The position numbers and the translations under genes are program-made. A model generated the notes under the pieces. The model ran no database searches. It was not told the DNA's origin and saw only the letters and a program-made list of their open reading frames with translations. A stretch of DNA of 35,110 nucleotides from Nitrososphaerales archaeon. Lineage in GTDB: Archaea; Thermoproteota; Nitrososphaeria; Nitrososphaerales; Nitrososphaeraceae. Location: the NCBI GenBank assembly GCA_025451315.1, contig JANWKP010000138.1, positions 1-35,110 on the forward strand. The letters run 5' to 3'. The stretch's first letter is position 1, and every line of letters begins with the position of its first letter. Positions 3,948 through 22,281 of the stretch are shown one piece after another.

Positions 3948-3978
3948 ATGAATCATAATGGTAATTGATAATAAACTG

Positions 3979-3988
3979 TTTAATAAAT
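3979..3988 (+). promoter_or_regulatory. Possible archaeal TATA/box A element for the P5CDH gene
   Basis: T/A-rich tttaataaat about 25-30 bp upstream of the ATG at 4009, in the short divergent intergenic region. Confidence 0.35.
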
Positions 3989-4008
3989 ACAAGATCTATA
4001 TTATTTAC

Positions 4009-5583
4009 ATGAAGTTTATGAATGAGCTAACGTATGAAAATTATATCAAAAGAAATCAGGAGGATATATTCCATACTAAATTTGATAATGCAATTGAATC
4101 TCTAACAAAAGAATTCAATAATGAAGATTACCCCGTTATTATAAATAACGAAAAAATATACACAAGAGATAAATATAAACATATATCTCCAGTTGACCGA
4201 CGCATTATACTTGGATATGTTTCCAAGATATCAGATCGACTATTAAACGAAGCTATAGATTCATCATTCCAATCATTCAAAGAATGGAGTAAACTTGATT
4301 ATCGAAAGAGGATCAGAATTCTTAAAAATGTAGCAAATACTATTCGATCTAACAAGTTTCAACTTGCTGCATTATTAATCTTTGAAAATGGCAAAAATAG
4401 ATACGAATCGATTGCGGATATTGATGAAGCGATAGACTTTATTAACTATTATTGTAGTAACATGATCAAAAATAATGGGTATGTTACTATAAATACATCA
4501 ATAGAAAGAACCCAAAAAAATATCAGTATTATGAAACCTTATGGAGTGTGGGGAATAATATCTCCTTTTAATTTTCCTGCTGCGATATTTGTAGGTATGA
4601 ATATAGGAGCGATTATTACAGGAAATACTGCTGTTGCAAAACCTGCAAGTAATACGCCTATAATAGGATACAAAATCGTAGAAATAATGATAGAATCTGG
4701 TTTACCACCTGGTGTATTAAATTATATTACTGGCGACGCTGTTAAAATTGGAAAAACAATAATCAAGAGTAAAAAGATCTCGGGCATAGTTTTTACAGGT
4801 TCCAAAGATGTTGGATATACTCTTTATAAAAAATCAGCGAATATAAAATCTAGACCTATTATTGCTGAATTAGGCGGAAAAAATCCTACTATTGTTACGA
4901 TGACTGCCGATTTGAACAGAGCTGCTGAAGGAGTAAGTCGAGCTGCTTTTTCCTATGGGGGACAAAAATGCAGTGCCTGTTCAAGGGTTTATGTTCATAA
5001 AAACGTCAAGAAACAATTTATAGAGAGATTAATATTAAATGTGACAAAAATAAATATAGAAAATTCCGATAATAGGAATTGCGATTTAGGACCGTTGATT
5101 AACTCTGATGCCTTTCAAAACTTTAAGAAATATGTAGATATAGCCTCACATGAAGGAAAAATTCTCTATGGAGGAAAAATTATGAATGAAGGTGATTTAA
5201 AATATGGATATTACGTTACGCCCACAATAGTAGAAGGGGTACCTTTTGATAATGTTCTTGTAAAAAAGGAGTTGTTCTTGCCATTTCTGTGTATTAATGA
5301 ATTCAATCAATTTTCTGAAGCTCTCAACTTGTGTAATAAGTCTGAATACGGATTAACAGCTGCGATTTATTCGAAGGATAAAAAGGAGATAGATGATTTT
5401 GTAAATAATATAGAGGCAGGAGTTGTGTATGTAAATAGACATAAAAGCTCAACTACAGGCGCTCTTGTTGGGAATCAATCTTTTGGAGGCTGGAAAAATT
5501 CTGGTATTTCTGGAAAAGGAACAGGTGGAAAATATTATCTTACACAATTCATGCGGGAACAAAGTCAGACTATAGTAGAATAA
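4009..5583 (+). CDS. rocA: 1-pyrroline-5-carboxylate dehydrogenase-type aldehyde dehydrogenase
   Basis: SPFNFPAAIF, ELGGKNP (catalytic Glu region), GGQKCSACSRVYV (catalytic Cys), C-terminal NRHKSSTTGALVGNQSFGGWKNSGISGKGTGGKYYL typical of P5CDH; ORF extends to 3958, start 4009 (MKFMNEL) preferred. Confidence 0.88.
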   Translation: MKFMNELTYENYIKRNQEDIFHTKFDNAIESLTKEFNNEDYPVIINNEKIYTRDKYKHISPVDRRIILGYVSKISDRLLNEAIDSSFQSFKEWSKLDYRKRIRILKNVANTIRSNKFQLAALLIFENGKNRYESIADIDEAIDFINYYCSNMIKNNGYVTINTSIERTQKNISIMKPYGVWGIISPFNFPAAIFVGMNIGAIITGNTAVAKPASNTPIIGYKIVEIMIESGLPPGVLNYITGDAVKIGKTIIKSKKISGIVFTGSKDVGYTLYKKSANIKSRPIIAELGGKNPTIVTMTADLNRAAEGVSRAAFSYGGQKCSACSRVYVHKNVKKQFIERLILNVTKINIENSDNRNCDLGPLINSDAFQNFKKYVDIASHEGKILYGGKIMNEGDLKYGYYVTPTIVEGVPFDNVLVKKELFLPFLCINEFNQFSEALNLCNKSEYGLTAAIYSKDKKEIDDFVNNIEAGVVYVNRHKSSTTGALVGNQSFGGWKNSGISGKGTGGKYYLTQFMREQSQTIVE

Positions 5584-12688: not shown

Positions 12689-13630
12689 ATGAATTTTTCT
12701 ATCGATGACGATCATTTTTCCAATAAATACCCTCATTCTTATCATAGAGAGCCTTTCCTGTTAGATAAACTACTTTTTACATTATCTAAAAAATGGATTG
12801 CTGGATATAATATAGATGCTGCGTTAAATTATGCTCTTGGTGCGAATAAAAGAGGTTTGAAATGTATTATCAATTACTTGGGAGAGGATTTAAAAAATGT
12901 AGAAATGGTGAAAAATACAGTAATTGAATATAAAAATCTTATAAAAAACATGAAAGTATGTGGTATTGAAGGTTCGATTTCAATAAAACCGACACAAATA
13001 GGTCTCTCCTTGGATATGAATTTCTGTCTAGACCAATTACTAGAAATAACTTCGATCGCAAAAAAGAACAATATTTTTTTATGGATAGACATGGAATCTT
13101 TTGAGAATGTTGAACCGACTATTATTATTTATAAAAAAGTTATTGAAGAAATAGACCAAATCGGTATTGTTCTCCAATCAAATCTTAAAAGAAGCTATTA
13201 TGATTTGAGTAAGTTATTGATTTATGGCTCAAATATAAGGCTAGTAAAAGGAGCTTATCATGAAAAAGAGATATATGCATTTCAAACTAAACATGAAATT
13301 GACAATAATTACATCGAAATGGCTAAACTCTTATTTTCAAAAAAAAATGATCTTAGAGAAAACCAAATTTTTGCCATTGCTACACATGATTCTAACATAA
13401 TTCAAAAATCACTAGATCTACTTTTTTTATACGATTTTAAAAAAGAGCATTTACAATTCCAATTTCTAAAGGGAATTCGGGAAAAACTTAAAATTAATTT
13501 ATTATTAAAGGGATTTAATGTTTATGAATACGTACCATACGGTCGAAATTGGCTTCCTTATTCTCTGAGAAGGTTCCGAGAACGAAAAAGCAATGTAATT
13601 CTATTATTGCGTTCATTAATTTCCCCTTGA
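12689..13630 (+). CDS. Proline dehydrogenase
   Basis: KWIAGYNIDAALNYALGANKRGL, SIKPTQIGLSLD, LWIDMESF, GIVLQSNLKRSYYDL, IRLVKGAYHEKE, IATHDSNII, FQFLKGIRE, YVPYGRNWLPYSLRRFRER: ProDH TIM-barrel motifs. Confidence 0.92.
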   Translation: MNFSIDDDHFSNKYPHSYHREPFLLDKLLFTLSKKWIAGYNIDAALNYALGANKRGLKCIINYLGEDLKNVEMVKNTVIEYKNLIKNMKVCGIEGSISIKPTQIGLSLDMNFCLDQLLEITSIAKKNNIFLWIDMESFENVEPTIIIYKKVIEEIDQIGIVLQSNLKRSYYDLSKLLIYGSNIRLVKGAYHEKEIYAFQTKHEIDNNYIEMAKLLFSKKNDLRENQIFAIATHDSNIIQKSLDLLFLYDFKKEHLQFQFLKGIREKLKINLLLKGFNVYEYVPYGRNWLPYSLRRFRERKSNVILLLRSLISP

Positions 13631-16037: not shown

Positions 16038-16589
16038 ATGAAACAGTATTCTGTTCCTACTTTATTGAAAAATCATGAAAAATACTTATTTACAATTTTA
16101 CTCTTAGCAATAATTTCTATAGTGGGATTTACTATAGAAAAAGCATATCCTCAAGTGGAAGATTCCCAATTGAATGGTCCAGCAATGGATTCTCAAAAAA
16201 CCAAAAAATCGACACCATCTTCTGAAGGTAAATTTACCCCTAAAATGTATGTGAAAATTACATCTCATAAAAATGCTGACGTAGTTCCTGCTGGCGATCT
16301 TACTATTAATGGAACTTCAAGCGACACTGCGTCCAGGGATTGCGTGGTAGATGTTGATTGGAATAATGAAAAACCTTCTCAGATAGTGACACCTACAGGA
16401 CCAGGCGGCTCTAGTGATTTCTCAACATGGACATTTAATTATACAAAAGATTATCGTCAGATAGAAGTAGGACCGAATGAGCTTACATCAAAATTAACTT
16501 GTATCAACCCTGGGCCTTTAACTAAATGGTTCAGTGTTACAGTAACAGGAGAACAACCACCATTTCCAAGACCATTACCTGTTCCTTAA
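16038..16589 (+). CDS. Secreted/membrane-anchored protein with an Ig-like beta domain
   Basis: N-terminal hydrophobic helix (FTILLLAIISIVGFTI), then KMYVKITSHKNADVVPAGDLTINGTSSDTASRDCVVDVDWN...; Pro-rich C-terminus. Confidence 0.7.
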   Translation: MKQYSVPTLLKNHEKYLFTILLLAIISIVGFTIEKAYPQVEDSQLNGPAMDSQKTKKSTPSSEGKFTPKMYVKITSHKNADVVPAGDLTINGTSSDTASRDCVVDVDWNNEKPSQIVTPTGPGGSSDFSTWTFNYTKDYRQIEVGPNELTSKLTCINPGPLTKWFSVTVTGEQPPFPRPLPVP

Positions 16590-16669: not shown

Positions 16670-18205
16670 TTGAATTATAAATATTTTTTATCGACGAATG
16701 TTAATTTTGCTGTTTCAAAACAAGAAATATGTGTTATCTTCTCTATTTTTGTTATTACATTCATCGTTAGATTTTATGATTTAGGTGAGGTAGCTCTTAA
16801 TAATGATGAAGCAATATACGCTGGACAGGCTGCTTCACTTGCAAATTTTAGTGAATATCAAGAACAATTTTCTATATTCAGAGCACATCCATTATTATTG
16901 CAATTTATGATGTCTATCTCCTTTTATTTTTTTGGGATAAATGAATTTACTGCCAGAATCGTTCCTATGCTTTTGAGTTGTAGTATTATAGTAATATCCT
17001 ATTTTATTGCTAAATTTCTATATAATCAACGAACTGCCATAATATCTTCTATTATCCTTAGTTTACTTCCCTATCATATATCAATCTCCAAACAGGCACT
17101 TGTTGATGTATCAATGTCATTTTTCTTTGTTCTTAGTCTCTTACTTATTATACTATATTACCGAAAAAACTCATTATTTCTCCTTTATGGAATAGGAATC
17201 TCTACTGGGCTTTGCTTTCTTTCAAAAGAAACTGGAATTATCTCCTTAGTTATTTCTATCGTAAGTTTAATTCTTATAGATAAAAAAATAAAATTTAAAA
17301 ATATTATCGTTCTAACTTTATCTTTTGCTGTTGTAACCTCTCCATATTGGGTTTCTTTTTTAACTTTAGAAGAAGCACGTAAATCACTATTAGAATATAC
17401 TGATTGGCAAAGCACCAGGCCAGCAAATCATGGTAATCTTTATTATATTAATATTATATCCAGCGAAATTTTAGGTTATGTGTTATCTTCGTTACTTGTG
17501 ATAGCCTATTTGCAAATCTTAGTTAACAAAAGAAATTGGAAGTTTTCGAATGTCATTCTTCCTTTTTTCTGGATTATTATTCCGCTATTTTTTTATCAAA
17601 TGATTTCTGTTAAAGGATACCATTTTCTATTTTCGATTACCCCGTTTCTAGTTATTTTCGCTATATCTTTCCTTTCCAGTAATTGGATTAACAGGATTTC
17701 AAGGAATGAGATTTTGTTAATTGCTATAATTCCATTGACATTAATTTCCAATAATTATATCATCAATGAATATTTCTTATTTATTTCGCATACTCCTGTC
17801 CTAGGTTCAGAATCGTTATTTCATATGAGAGACGCGGCAATGTGGATTAAAGAAAATACTCCAGAGAATTCTACGATTCTTACTCTGTATACTCACATGT
17901 CGAATATAATAAAATTTTATGCACAAAGAGATTCGATAGCAATTCAATCTAACAATAATCCCTCATATCAAAAAATAGAAAATTTAGATATACAGATCTT
18001 GGCTAAAAAAATAAACTATATTGTTTATGAGAAGATTCAAATTGATAATGGAAAATTTTTAGAAAATAAAGCGACAGATCTTGAAAATTACGTCAAAAAG
18101 TATGATGGAATTCCAGTGTATGTTAATTACCAAAATTCTCCTAATGTAGAAAATAATAAATTTGTATCAATTCCAGCGATAATAATATATGAATTTAGCA
18201 GATGA
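16670..18205 (+). CDS. Glycosyltransferase family 39/ArnT-PMT-like membrane protein
   Basis: 511 aa polytopic protein; first loop FYDLGEVALNNDEAIYAGQAA (acidic GT-C motif), FRAHPLLLQFMMSISFYFFGINEFTARIVPML, later KETGIISLV; TTG start. Confidence 0.85.
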   Translation: MNYKYFLSTNVNFAVSKQEICVIFSIFVITFIVRFYDLGEVALNNDEAIYAGQAASLANFSEYQEQFSIFRAHPLLLQFMMSISFYFFGINEFTARIVPMLLSCSIIVISYFIAKFLYNQRTAIISSIILSLLPYHISISKQALVDVSMSFFFVLSLLLIILYYRKNSLFLLYGIGISTGLCFLSKETGIISLVISIVSLILIDKKIKFKNIIVLTLSFAVVTSPYWVSFLTLEEARKSLLEYTDWQSTRPANHGNLYYINIISSEILGYVLSSLLVIAYLQILVNKRNWKFSNVILPFFWIIIPLFFYQMISVKGYHFLFSITPFLVIFAISFLSSNWINRISRNEILLIAIIPLTLISNNYIINEYFLFISHTPVLGSESLFHMRDAAMWIKENTPENSTILTLYTHMSNIIKFYAQRDSIAIQSNNNPSYQKIENLDIQILAKKINYIVYEKIQIDNGKFLENKATDLENYVKKYDGIPVYVNYQNSPNVENNKFVSIPAIIIYEFSR

Positions 18206-18264
18206 TCTAATCTTAGTTTTGATTTAATACTAGACAGTTTTAATGATATTGTTATTGATCTAAA

Positions 18265-20244
18265 ATGATAATCAAAGCCTCCTTTTTTGTATTTGTGGTT
18301 TTTTTCACCCTGTCAATTAGTAGTAATGTTTTTGTTATCAATACAGTCTATTCAAATGAAAATAAAGATATATCTCAAAAGAATAAAACACCTATTGATC
18401 ATGTAATTATTATCTCGCAAGGAAGGAGAAGTTTTGATAATTATTTTGGGAACTTTGAAGGAGCTAATGGATTTCCTAAAAATACAGGTATACCAGTAAA
18501 CCCTTTTGAATTCTCACCTTCCTTCCAAAATTTTACCATATCATTAAGTTTTCTTAGCAACGCTTCTAACGTTGGAACAGAAAGTTTTCTTATAAACAAG
18601 GGAGGAATAGGAAAAGAAACTCCAAGAAATAATTTAAATTTTGGAATATGGCTTGACGAAAAAGGCTATCTAACTGGAGGTTTCGAAACAAAGAGCGGAA
18701 ATGATTTTTTTTTACTATCAAAAAATAAATATGCAGATAATAATTGGCATAATATTTTATTAACATACGATAAATCGACATTGAAATTATTTGTAGATAA
18801 CAATTTGCAATCTGAATTAAATACGGGAGGGGCTATACCAGATGATAATAACCTGCCAATTATTCGATTAGGAGCAAATTTTTTAAAACAAAATAATTTT
18901 TTTGTTGGTAGTATACAAAATCTTTTACTATGGAATAGATCATTAAATACAAATGAAATTTTGTCATTTTTTACAAATAATGCACTTCCTACAGGGTCAG
19001 TTGTAGACGTTCGGTCAAATACCTCTAATATTGATTATGTGAATGAGATTTCATCTTTAAATTTCAATGGCACTAATTATTTTGATTTGAAGTTAAGTCC
19101 CAATATCACTAAAGGTTTAATAGAGCCATTTCATTTAGAAAAAACTAAAACACCAAACTTAAAATATGGGCCACTTGTCTATGAGAAATCTTATAATTAT
19201 GGATTCATGGATGGTTTTATCTTTGCTCAAAAAGATAACAAGATAAAATCAAATGAGGTTAAAAAGTCTGACAACGATACTATTGTAATGGGATATTATA
19301 ACAAAAGTGAAATTGGTTCATATTGGGATCTAGCTTCCGACTTTGTTCTAGCAGACAATTTTTTTAGTCCTTCCCAACAAACTGATTTGACTAATAATCT
19401 TTTTTTATTTACTTCAGAAGAAGGTAATTTTAAAAAATACGTGCCTCGAGCAGGATTATCTATCAATTCAACTATCCTAGATTTATTAGAAAAAAAACAA
19501 ATAGCTTGGAAAGTTTATGTCGAAAACTATGATTCAAATCTCAATTATACCAACGAGAATGACTCATCAAAGCGATATCTTACTATTAATCCTATACTTG
19601 GAATTCCTAGATTTGTGGAAAATGCTACACTTAACGAAAGAATACAGGATTTGAGTAACTATTTCCATGATCTTAAGAATAACTTACCATCTCTCTCGTA
19701 TATTATTTTACCAGACAGTCAAGAAAGCAGCCCAAAAGATATTTTGGAAGGTCAAGAATCAGTTGTTTCTTTAATTATTTCATTAATGAAAAGTAAATAC
19801 TGGAAAAATAGTTTTTTTATATTAACTTATAGTGGTTCTGGCGGTTGGTATGATCATGTCCCGCCTCCGCTAAATTCTGAGTATGAATATGGATTTAGGA
19901 TACCAACACTATTCATTTCTCCCTATTCTCACCAAGGTAAAATAGATTCTACTTTCTATGACACTCTGTCGATTTTAAAATTCATAGAGTATAATTTTAA
20001 TCTAGAATCCATCGACCGTAGGGATTCATCATCTAATAATATTTTAGCGGCTTTTGATTTTAACAAACCTCCACGGAATTCAAGTGAAAGTGTATCCAAT
20101 CTTTTAGAAAATTATCAAACAAATATATCAAAAACGAAACCTGTTTTAAAAGAAAATATTTCTTTTACGTTTAACCTATATTTGATAGTGTTAATATCTG
20201 TTGTATCAGTTTTTTTGTTCCTACGATTTATTATACAAAAATAA
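18265..20244 (+). CDS. Secreted membrane-anchored phosphoesterase-family (PLC/AcpA-like) protein with an inserted LamG/concanavalin-like domain; metal-ligand motifs altered
   Basis: N-terminal signal; DHVIIISQGRRSFDNYFG; LamG-like insert (FTISLSFL...NWHNILLTYDKSTLKLFVDNNLQSEL...FVGSIQNLLLWNRSLNTNEIL); then SDFVLADNFFSPSQQTDLTNNLFLF, ILTYSGSGGWYDHVPPP and IPTLFISPYSHQG; C-terminal TM helix. Confidence 0.85.
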   Translation: MIIKASFFVFVVFFTLSISSNVFVINTVYSNENKDISQKNKTPIDHVIIISQGRRSFDNYFGNFEGANGFPKNTGIPVNPFEFSPSFQNFTISLSFLSNASNVGTESFLINKGGIGKETPRNNLNFGIWLDEKGYLTGGFETKSGNDFFLLSKNKYADNNWHNILLTYDKSTLKLFVDNNLQSELNTGGAIPDDNNLPIIRLGANFLKQNNFFVGSIQNLLLWNRSLNTNEILSFFTNNALPTGSVVDVRSNTSNIDYVNEISSLNFNGTNYFDLKLSPNITKGLIEPFHLEKTKTPNLKYGPLVYEKSYNYGFMDGFIFAQKDNKIKSNEVKKSDNDTIVMGYYNKSEIGSYWDLASDFVLADNFFSPSQQTDLTNNLFLFTSEEGNFKKYVPRAGLSINSTILDLLEKKQIAWKVYVENYDSNLNYTNENDSSKRYLTINPILGIPRFVENATLNERIQDLSNYFHDLKNNLPSLSYIILPDSQESSPKDILEGQESVVSLIISLMKSKYWKNSFFILTYSGSGGWYDHVPPPLNSEYEYGFRIPTLFISPYSHQGKIDSTFYDTLSILKFIEYNFNLESIDRRDSSSNNILAAFDFNKPPRNSSESVSNLLENYQTNISKTKPVLKENISFTFNLYLIVLISVVSVFLFLRFIIQK

Positions 20245-21378: not shown

Positions 21379-22281
21379 TTAAAAGTTTTTTATAATCAGC
21401 TCAGAGTGATTTTTACGTTTTTCTGCATTACTATTGATCGATCGAAGAGTATTTAGCGATATTATATTCTCTTTGAATGATGAATATAGATCTCTGATAA
21501 TTGTAGTATCTGAATTGCTTAATAATATTTTGCATTTTCTTTTATCCAACTCATTAAAAAAATTAGCTAATCTTTTTTGTTGGCTAATATCAAATCCATA
21601 GCTAGTATAATTTGTAAAATTTGAAGTTTCGTTTAGTGGAAAATATGGGGGATCAAAATATATAAAATCATTTTCTTTGATTTTTGAACTTATCTTTTGG
21701 TAATCATAATTTTCTATAGTTGTATTTCTTATACTCATAATTCTATTTACTTTAGTAAGATTTTTAAAGTCACAAATCTTTGGTTTTATGTAACTTCCAA
21801 TTGGAACGTTAAATATTCCACTTTTATTGACTCGGTATAACCCATTATAACACGTCTTATTCAAGGTAATAAATCTAGCAGCTTCCTTAATACTATCGAA
21901 TGGAAATCTTTCACCTCGTAACTTATAATAAAATTTTTTTGGATCTTTATAATATTCATTTTCATTGTATTGTAATTCTTTAATTAGTTCTTTTAAGTCA
22001 TCTTTTATGGTTTTATATACATTTATCAATTCGGAGTTAATATCAGATAGATGAAGTGAAAAATTCTTTTTAATTTTAAAAGAACTGGTTAGATAAAAAA
22101 ATAACGCTCCGCTTCCTACAAAAGGTTCAAAATAATTATTGAATTCTTCAGGGATAAAATTTTTTAGTTGAGAAATTAGGCGTGATTTTCCTCCTGCCCA
22201 TTTTATAAAAGGATGACAAATACCATAATTATTTTTAGCAGAATGATTGTTTTGTAAAGGCATATTTTGACAGACTTTCAT
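21379..22281 (-). CDS. D12-class (Dam-like) DNA adenine-N6 methyltransferase
   Basis: PFIKWAGGKSRLISQL, YFEPFVGSGALFFYL, RFITLNKTCYNGLYRVNKSGIFNVPIGSY, DFIYFDPPYFPL, ILLSNSD. Confidence 0.95.
   Translation of the reverse strand: MKVCQNMPLQNNHSAKNNYGICHPFIKWAGGKSRLISQLKNFIPEEFNNYFEPFVGSGALFFYLTSSFKIKKNFSLHLSDINSELINVYKTIKDDLKELIKELQYNENEYYKDPKKFYYKLRGERFPFDSIKEAARFITLNKTCYNGLYRVNKSGIFNVPIGSYIKPKICDFKNLTKVNRIMSIRNTTIENYDYQKISSKIKENDFIYFDPPYFPLNETSNFTNYTSYGFDISQQKRLANFFNELDKRKCKILLSNSDTTIIRDLYSSFKENIISLNTLRSINSNAEKRKNHSELIIKNF

Follow-up and report, generated by a model that had tools for sequence, protein, structure and literature searches.

A LamG-inserted PF04185 pseudoenzyme encoded next to a GT39-like glycosyltransferase gene in Nitrososphaeraceae

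The active site of plant NPC4 (8hav/8haw) comprises E23, N24, D76, H79, T158, H264, D299 and E300, and the T158D mutation eliminates its activity (PMC9837106). In AcpA (2d1g), the active site consists of E43, N44, S175, D386 and D387 together with histidines, and SapM mutants altered singly at the AcpA-equivalent sites are inactive (PMC6635428). Here we describe an archaeal protein that has the profile, the fold and the RSFDN and GGWYDHV flanks in common with these two structures, with RePLC (8k3g) and with the bacterial PLC N/H (9gy2, 9gye). Unlike all of them, it possesses neither the metal ligands nor the nucleophile nor the substrate histidines, and it carries a LamG insert, a C-terminal transmembrane (TM) helix and a linked GT39 gene. 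The mycobacterial SapM-type phosphatases belong to the same Pfam family and look secreted; however, SapM-like ORFs in G025, G086 and G088 retain the E-N and D-E pairs that the present protein has lost. No description of a dead AcpA/PLC-type phosphoesterase, of a LamG insertion in PF04185 or of a PF04185-GT39 pair was found in the open-access literature searched.

The pseudoenzymes FAM20A, MTMR13 and prozyme have likewise lost catalytic residues, kept the fold and acquired a genomic or functional partner enzyme. Those proteins pair with an active relative that shares their fold, whereas the candidate partner here is an unrelated membrane glycosyltransferase. Fungal and human PMT (GT39) enzymes possess a luminal MIR domain. 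By analogy, the present pair may be compared with them in that both would combine a PMT_2-type transferase bearing a DE motif with a carbohydrate-binding module on the extracytoplasmic side, but here that module would belong to a distinct TM protein with another fold.

Domain layout and predicted structure

The window (the whole stretch of DNA analyzed, 35,110 nucleotides) derives from a Nitrososphaeraceae assembly of 4.04 Mb with a completeness of 92.8%. The gene and its segments are as follows.

18265..20244, + strand: coding sequence of the pseudo-phosphoesterase with LamG insert, 659 aa (ORF and Pfam)
18265..18357, + strand: N-terminal hydrophobic helix, residues 1-31, signal peptide or anchor (hydropathy >1.6; helix 2-31 or 2-36 in two models)
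18394..18504, + strand: N-terminal phosphoesterase half, residues 44-80 (PF04185 profile positions 1-32 at 18394-18489 in the genome profile search)
18523..18960, + strand: inserted Laminin_G_3/ConA-like domain, residues 87-232 (Pfam 5.2e-15; model; Foldseek)
19180..20004, + strand: C-terminal phosphoesterase half, residues 306-580, the best stretch (Pfam)
20158..20238, + strand: C-terminal TM helix, residues 632-658 (hydropathy >1.6 in windows starting at 631-641; modelled helix)

The protein matched PF04185 in two stretches (E=5.6e-54), and the score of 184.1 bits, above the curated cut-off of 23, places it in the family by descent. Between the two halves, right behind the first ligand helix, lies an insert of about 160 residues that scored 56.3 bits against the Laminin_G_3 cut-off of 27.6. 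Residues 87-232 resemble LamG/pentraxin lectin-like domains by both profile and fold, and they share about 30-45% identity with LamG repeats that the same genera carry in other proteins; rather than forming part of a tandem surface array, the domain sits inside the phosphoesterase.

A second AlphaFold2 model, built from a 33-row alignment, had a mean pLDDT of 76.5 and a pTM of 0.62. The LamG and core sheets were of good quality (pLDDT mostly 75-96 for LamG residues 121-230), and residues 310-341 fell below 50. The best Foldseek matches were AcpA (2d1g, 9.9e-18), RePLC (8k3g, 1.6e-17) and NPC4 (4.5e-17), followed by pentraxin and LamG structures; the superposition on RePLC gave 3.2 A over 304 columns. 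Thus, at moderate model confidence, the protein has the alkaline-phosphatase-like fold of AcpA and NPC. The splitting of the phosphoesterase by LamG is supported by predicted fold and sequence together, and the relative placement of the domains and the geometry of the pocket in the model are uncertain.

With a hydrophobic segment at each end (residues about 1-31 and 632-658), the protein probably exposes its mature part outside the cell, a topology read from these segments. The stalk ahead of the TM helix is barely conserved, with one invariant residue in 605-659.

Most of the layout had been proposed in the first-pass annotation. The ORF that it gave proved exact, as did the two motifs with their codon positions (G53-R54 at 18421-18426; S523-G524 at 19831-19836), and its LamG boundaries of 18505-18990 are close to those of Pfam. 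The C-terminal TM helix that it named is borne out by hydropathy and model. Its account of membrane anchoring holds for this helix but left the N-terminal hydrophobic segment unmentioned.

Catalytic positions and selection

To compare the active-site columns, 10 clade rows (from 9 genomes, some rows being fragments) were aligned with 19 canonical relatives. The former catalytic positions in the window copy are as follows.

18421..18426, + strand: former metal ligands Glu-Asn, now Gly53-Arg54 (G in 9/9 and R/K in 9/9 pseudo-members; E-N in 19/19 canonical)
19156..19167, + strand: former Asp-x-x-His, leaving-group acid, now Asn298...Tyr301 (His in 18/19 canonical and in 0/9 pseudo-members reaching the column; loose alignment)
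19384..19386, + strand: former nucleophile Ser/Thr, now Asp374 (S/T in 19/19 canonical; D or G in pseudo-members)
19726..19728, + strand: former EHPP-motif His, now Ser488 (His in 19/19 canonical; S or N in pseudo-members)
19831..19836, + strand: former metal ligands Asp-Asp/Glu, now Ser523-Gly524 (D, D/E in 19/19 canonical; SG, SS or RE in pseudo-members)

E, N, the Ser/Thr nucleophile, the EHPP His, D and D/E were each present in 19/19 canonical relatives, and none of the six was kept by any pseudo-member covering the site. In the same order, the clade has G, R/K, D/G, S/N, S/R and G/S/E. The acid-His column, in a loosely aligned stretch, holds Y, F, D or G in the pseudo-members, and the G093 protein has one His one column off the position of the EHPP His. 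The features of a competent PF04185 enzyme, namely E-N, the Ser/Thr nucleophile, D-D/E and the substrate and acid histidines (equivalents of H350/H264 and H106/H79), are therefore missing. The natural Asp374 is the same change at the nucleophile position as the activity-killing T158D of NPC4. Catalytic death had been proposed from the loss of the two ligand pairs; both losses stand, but the list was incomplete, as the nucleophile and the substrate histidines are gone too.

In contrast to these sites, the flanking scaffold residues are retained (RSFDN with S56, F57 and D58, and GGWYDHV), and the segment SQG(R/K)RSFDN(Y/F)FG and D530-H531 are strongly conserved in the clade. Of the former first metal pair, the Gly never varies and the Arg/Lys is retained, whereas the remaining ex-catalytic sites differ by lineage. 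Pseudoenzymes at times retain activity via migrated residues (PMC10211241). This precedent and the strong conservation of the SQG segment and D530-H531 would suit a protein that is still an enzyme, that is, a hydrolase or transferase neo-functionalized through migrated or different catalytic residues. However, the replacements are lineage-specific (Asp or Gly at the nucleophile; S/G or S/S versus R/E at the second pair), as would not be expected of a rebuilt active site common to the clade, and we regard continued catalysis as very unlikely. The variation at the ex-catalytic sites fits better with a structural or binding role.

Selection was estimated among the four congeners G000, G001, G002 and G005. 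The dN/dS of the whole gene was 0.17-0.24 (dS 0.30-0.76), that of the phosphoesterase core 0.11-0.15 (dS 0.34-0.86) and that of the LamG domain 0.18-0.40. Purifying selection on the coding sequence is clear, and the dead core is more constrained than the lectin domain. The proposal that selection has kept the scaffold is borne out by the core values. Drift or sequencing error was rejected as the source of the substitutions, because they are conserved in 9 genomes and dN/dS is low. A decaying pseudogene or an assembly artefact would have a parallel in canonical copies elsewhere that carry in-frame stops (G004:C11, G031:C210, G031:C184), but it is hardly credible here: the frame is intact in all full-length members, dN/dS is well below 1 and the same architecture recurs in 9 genomes. 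Judged on sequence, the LamG-inserted PF04185 protein is well supported as a pseudoenzyme, in which the catalytic motif is lost, the fold is kept and selection acts.

Distribution of the clade and linkage to the GT39-like gene

The pseudo-phosphoesterase was found in 9/70 genomes of the family Nitrososphaeraceae, belonging to 3 genera. All six genomes of the window's genus carry it, with 49-77% identity to the window copy over the longer pieces; the further carriers are G030 and G092 (genus g6) and G093 (genus g10). LamG lies at the same place in every pseudo-member covering it. A tree built from the phosphoesterase part groups the seven pseudo-members with full or almost full sequence into one clade with a support of 100/100 and a long stem. 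The tree places both the loss of catalysis and the gain of LamG on this stem, so that each is of single origin. The first-pass annotation would have been refuted by substitutions unique to this sequence, and here the outcome favored it: the ligand loss at 53-54 is common to 8/8 other members covering the site (G-R or G-K). The insert, too, accompanies the lost motifs throughout, in the 6 members of the genus as well as in 3 genomes from 2 further genera.

The remaining PF04185 proteins of the family with readable motifs keep E-N and D-D/E. The motif patterns have two gaps, as the second misses the RE variant and the first misses the G093 variant; both gaps were covered by a protein search with the C-terminal half of the G092 protein. 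This search recovered the clade at 51-63% identity, all other matches having lower scores and shorter or more distant stretches, and revealed no further clade member in the family. A relaxed first-motif pattern, run across 200 genomes of the phylum, matched in the window only. Several genomes of the sample are fragmentary, and the pseudo-phosphoesterase genes of G030 and G004 end at contig ends.

PF04185 as a whole is patchy in the family: 27/70 genomes have any member, and the number of matches per genome ranges from none to ten. A profile search of the window's assembly (92.8% complete) detected no other PF04185 match. In G001, G002 and G005, the PF04185 matches among those listed are explained by the pseudo-gene itself, although these MAGs are incomplete, and G003, G004 and G030 have a canonical copy as well. 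A role as regulator of an active paralog was rejected, since no paralog that it could regulate was seen in the window's genome. Separately, in-frame stops were noticed in canonical copies of relatives (those named above and G036:C299); some ordinary copies appear to decay, and the pseudo-enzyme stays intact.

The genes upstream of the pseudo-phosphoesterase are arranged as follows.

16038..16589, + strand: secreted-looking gene 5' of the glycosyltransferase, 183 aa, no Pfam match; in place in all six genus members
16670..18205, + strand: GT39/PMT_2-like membrane glycosyltransferase with TTG start (Pfam PMT_2 2.5e-16, 60.7 bits against a cut-off of 26.1)
18206..18264, + strand: spacer of 59 bp between glycosyltransferase and pseudo-phosphoesterase (4 bp in G030, overlap in G093)

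The PMT_2 match confirms the position downstream of a GT39-like gene that had been pointed out earlier. The NNDE and AHPL motifs of the transferase are intact. NNDE, the DE motif of the first extracytoplasmic loop, is aligned in all paired transferases reaching the N-terminus, in keeping with membership of GT39/PMT_2. As to its start, TTG 16670 or a codon nearby must be used, because an ATG-only call (16907) loses the NNDE loop that the relatives keep. The 183-aa gene was not seen upstream of the transferase in G030 or G092.

The pseudo-phosphoesterase lies directly downstream of the GT39-like gene in 9/9 carriers. Conversely, a homologue of the transferase (at least 36% identity) was detected in 9/70 family genomes and adjoins the pseudo-phosphoesterase each time. 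Both genes are absent from the other 61, two of which have distant GT39 relatives only. The probability of this co-occurrence by chance is 1.5e-11 if genomes are taken as independent, a statistic that ignores phylogeny; counted per genus, perfect agreement with 3/12 has a chance of 1 in 220. The pair is present in only some species of g6 (2 genomes) and g10 (1 genome), and thus was gained or lost as a unit. The two genes are about 45-66 bp apart in the window's genus and about 4-10 bp apart in g6, and they overlap in g10. Such spacing is consistent with one transcription unit.

Candidate role at the membrane surface

The pseudo-phosphoesterase is strictly linked to a single transferase, which suggests binding of that enzyme's acceptor or donor at the membrane surface and points to a partner of the enzyme rather than to a receptor. 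From genomic linkage, we infer that the protein may be a membrane-anchored, extracellular, non-catalytic binding partner of the adjacent GT39/PMT-like enzyme, and we put the odds of this at about even (roughly 0.5). Adjacency can also reflect a common pathway without interaction.

The proposed mechanism starts from an AcpA/PLC-type fold whose metal site, nucleophile and substrate histidines disappeared in a single ancestor. The TM helix would hold the protein at the outer membrane face, where LamG and the emptied pocket may bind the acceptor glycan or else a glycan or lipid that carries phosphate. The bound ligand would be presented to, or kept near, the upstream transferase. With the basic Arg54 or Lys in place of the Asn ligand, the pocket could accommodate an anion without the help of a metal, and an acidic residue available in each lineage (Asp374 or Glu524) might form a salt bridge replacing the metal. 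An extended version would be a two-gene surface-glycosylation unit, in which the GT39-like transferase depends on a metal-free, lectin-inserted pseudo-phospholipase C as its extracellular substrate-presenting subunit. The subunit would hold a phospho-glycan or polyprenyl-phosphate sugar, and the salt bridge would be Arg54-Asp374 in one lineage and Lys/Arg54-Glu524 in the others. We offer this version as speculative and rather doubtful.

Two other roles were weighed. GT39 enzymes glycosylate secreted proteins. The pseudo-phosphoesterase might thus be a dedicated substrate, the main acceptor glycoprotein of the adjacent O-glycosyltransferase, which would explain the adjacency, the co-occurrence and the strictness of the linkage. 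However, no conserved acceptor tract rich in Ser/Thr is apparent, the stalk being as variable as described above, and we consider this role unlikely.

Alternatively, and in line with the receptor reading of the first-pass annotation, the dead core and LamG may form a stand-alone surface receptor or adhesin that binds glycans or phosphate compounds of the environment or of neighbor cells, the transferase merely glycosylating this or other surface proteins. The LamG insert and the hydrophobic ends agree with such a receptor, as does a multi-LamG gene just 5' of the transferase in G030 and G092. Each member also has 12-16 N-glycosylation sequons, but the number exceeds the composition expectation (P 0.0035-0.01) in only 3/7 members, and sequon excess was set aside as a weak proof of surface exposure. 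A receptor by itself gives no reason to expect the gene, across 70 genomes, only in the company of one transferase subfamily, and the dead core being more constrained than the lectin domain also speaks against it. A free-standing receptor is possible but somewhat doubtful.

If the partnership is true, the pair offers a tractable case of an enzyme fold that has become a binding module and is coupled to a glycosyltransferase from a different family. Little is known of the surface glycans of the soil archaea concerned. An automatic label of 'phospholipase C' or of 'acid phosphatase' would misdescribe the members of this clade.

Other genes were observed around the pair. The genes with several LamG-like repeats just 5' of the transferase in G030 and G092 (L052:2931-4952 and L074:1-1986) fit an expansion of LamG in these genera, which have many LamG matches. 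In G092, a 757-aa ORF directly 3' of the pseudo-phosphoesterase (L074:5789-8062) resembles, by eye, a calcineurin-type phosphatase plus a glucose-dehydrogenase-like propeller, and in G064 a calcineurin-like ORF (L076:2644-4395) lies near a distant GT39 homologue. In the window, a D12-class N6-adenine DNA methyltransferase (21379-22281, - strand; Pfam 5.6e-60) is encoded downstream of the pair, and it is also near the pair in G001, G002, G004 and G005. A glutamate-semialdehyde dehydrogenase-like gene (3958-5583, + strand) and a proline dehydrogenase gene (12689-13630, + strand) suggest proline catabolism.
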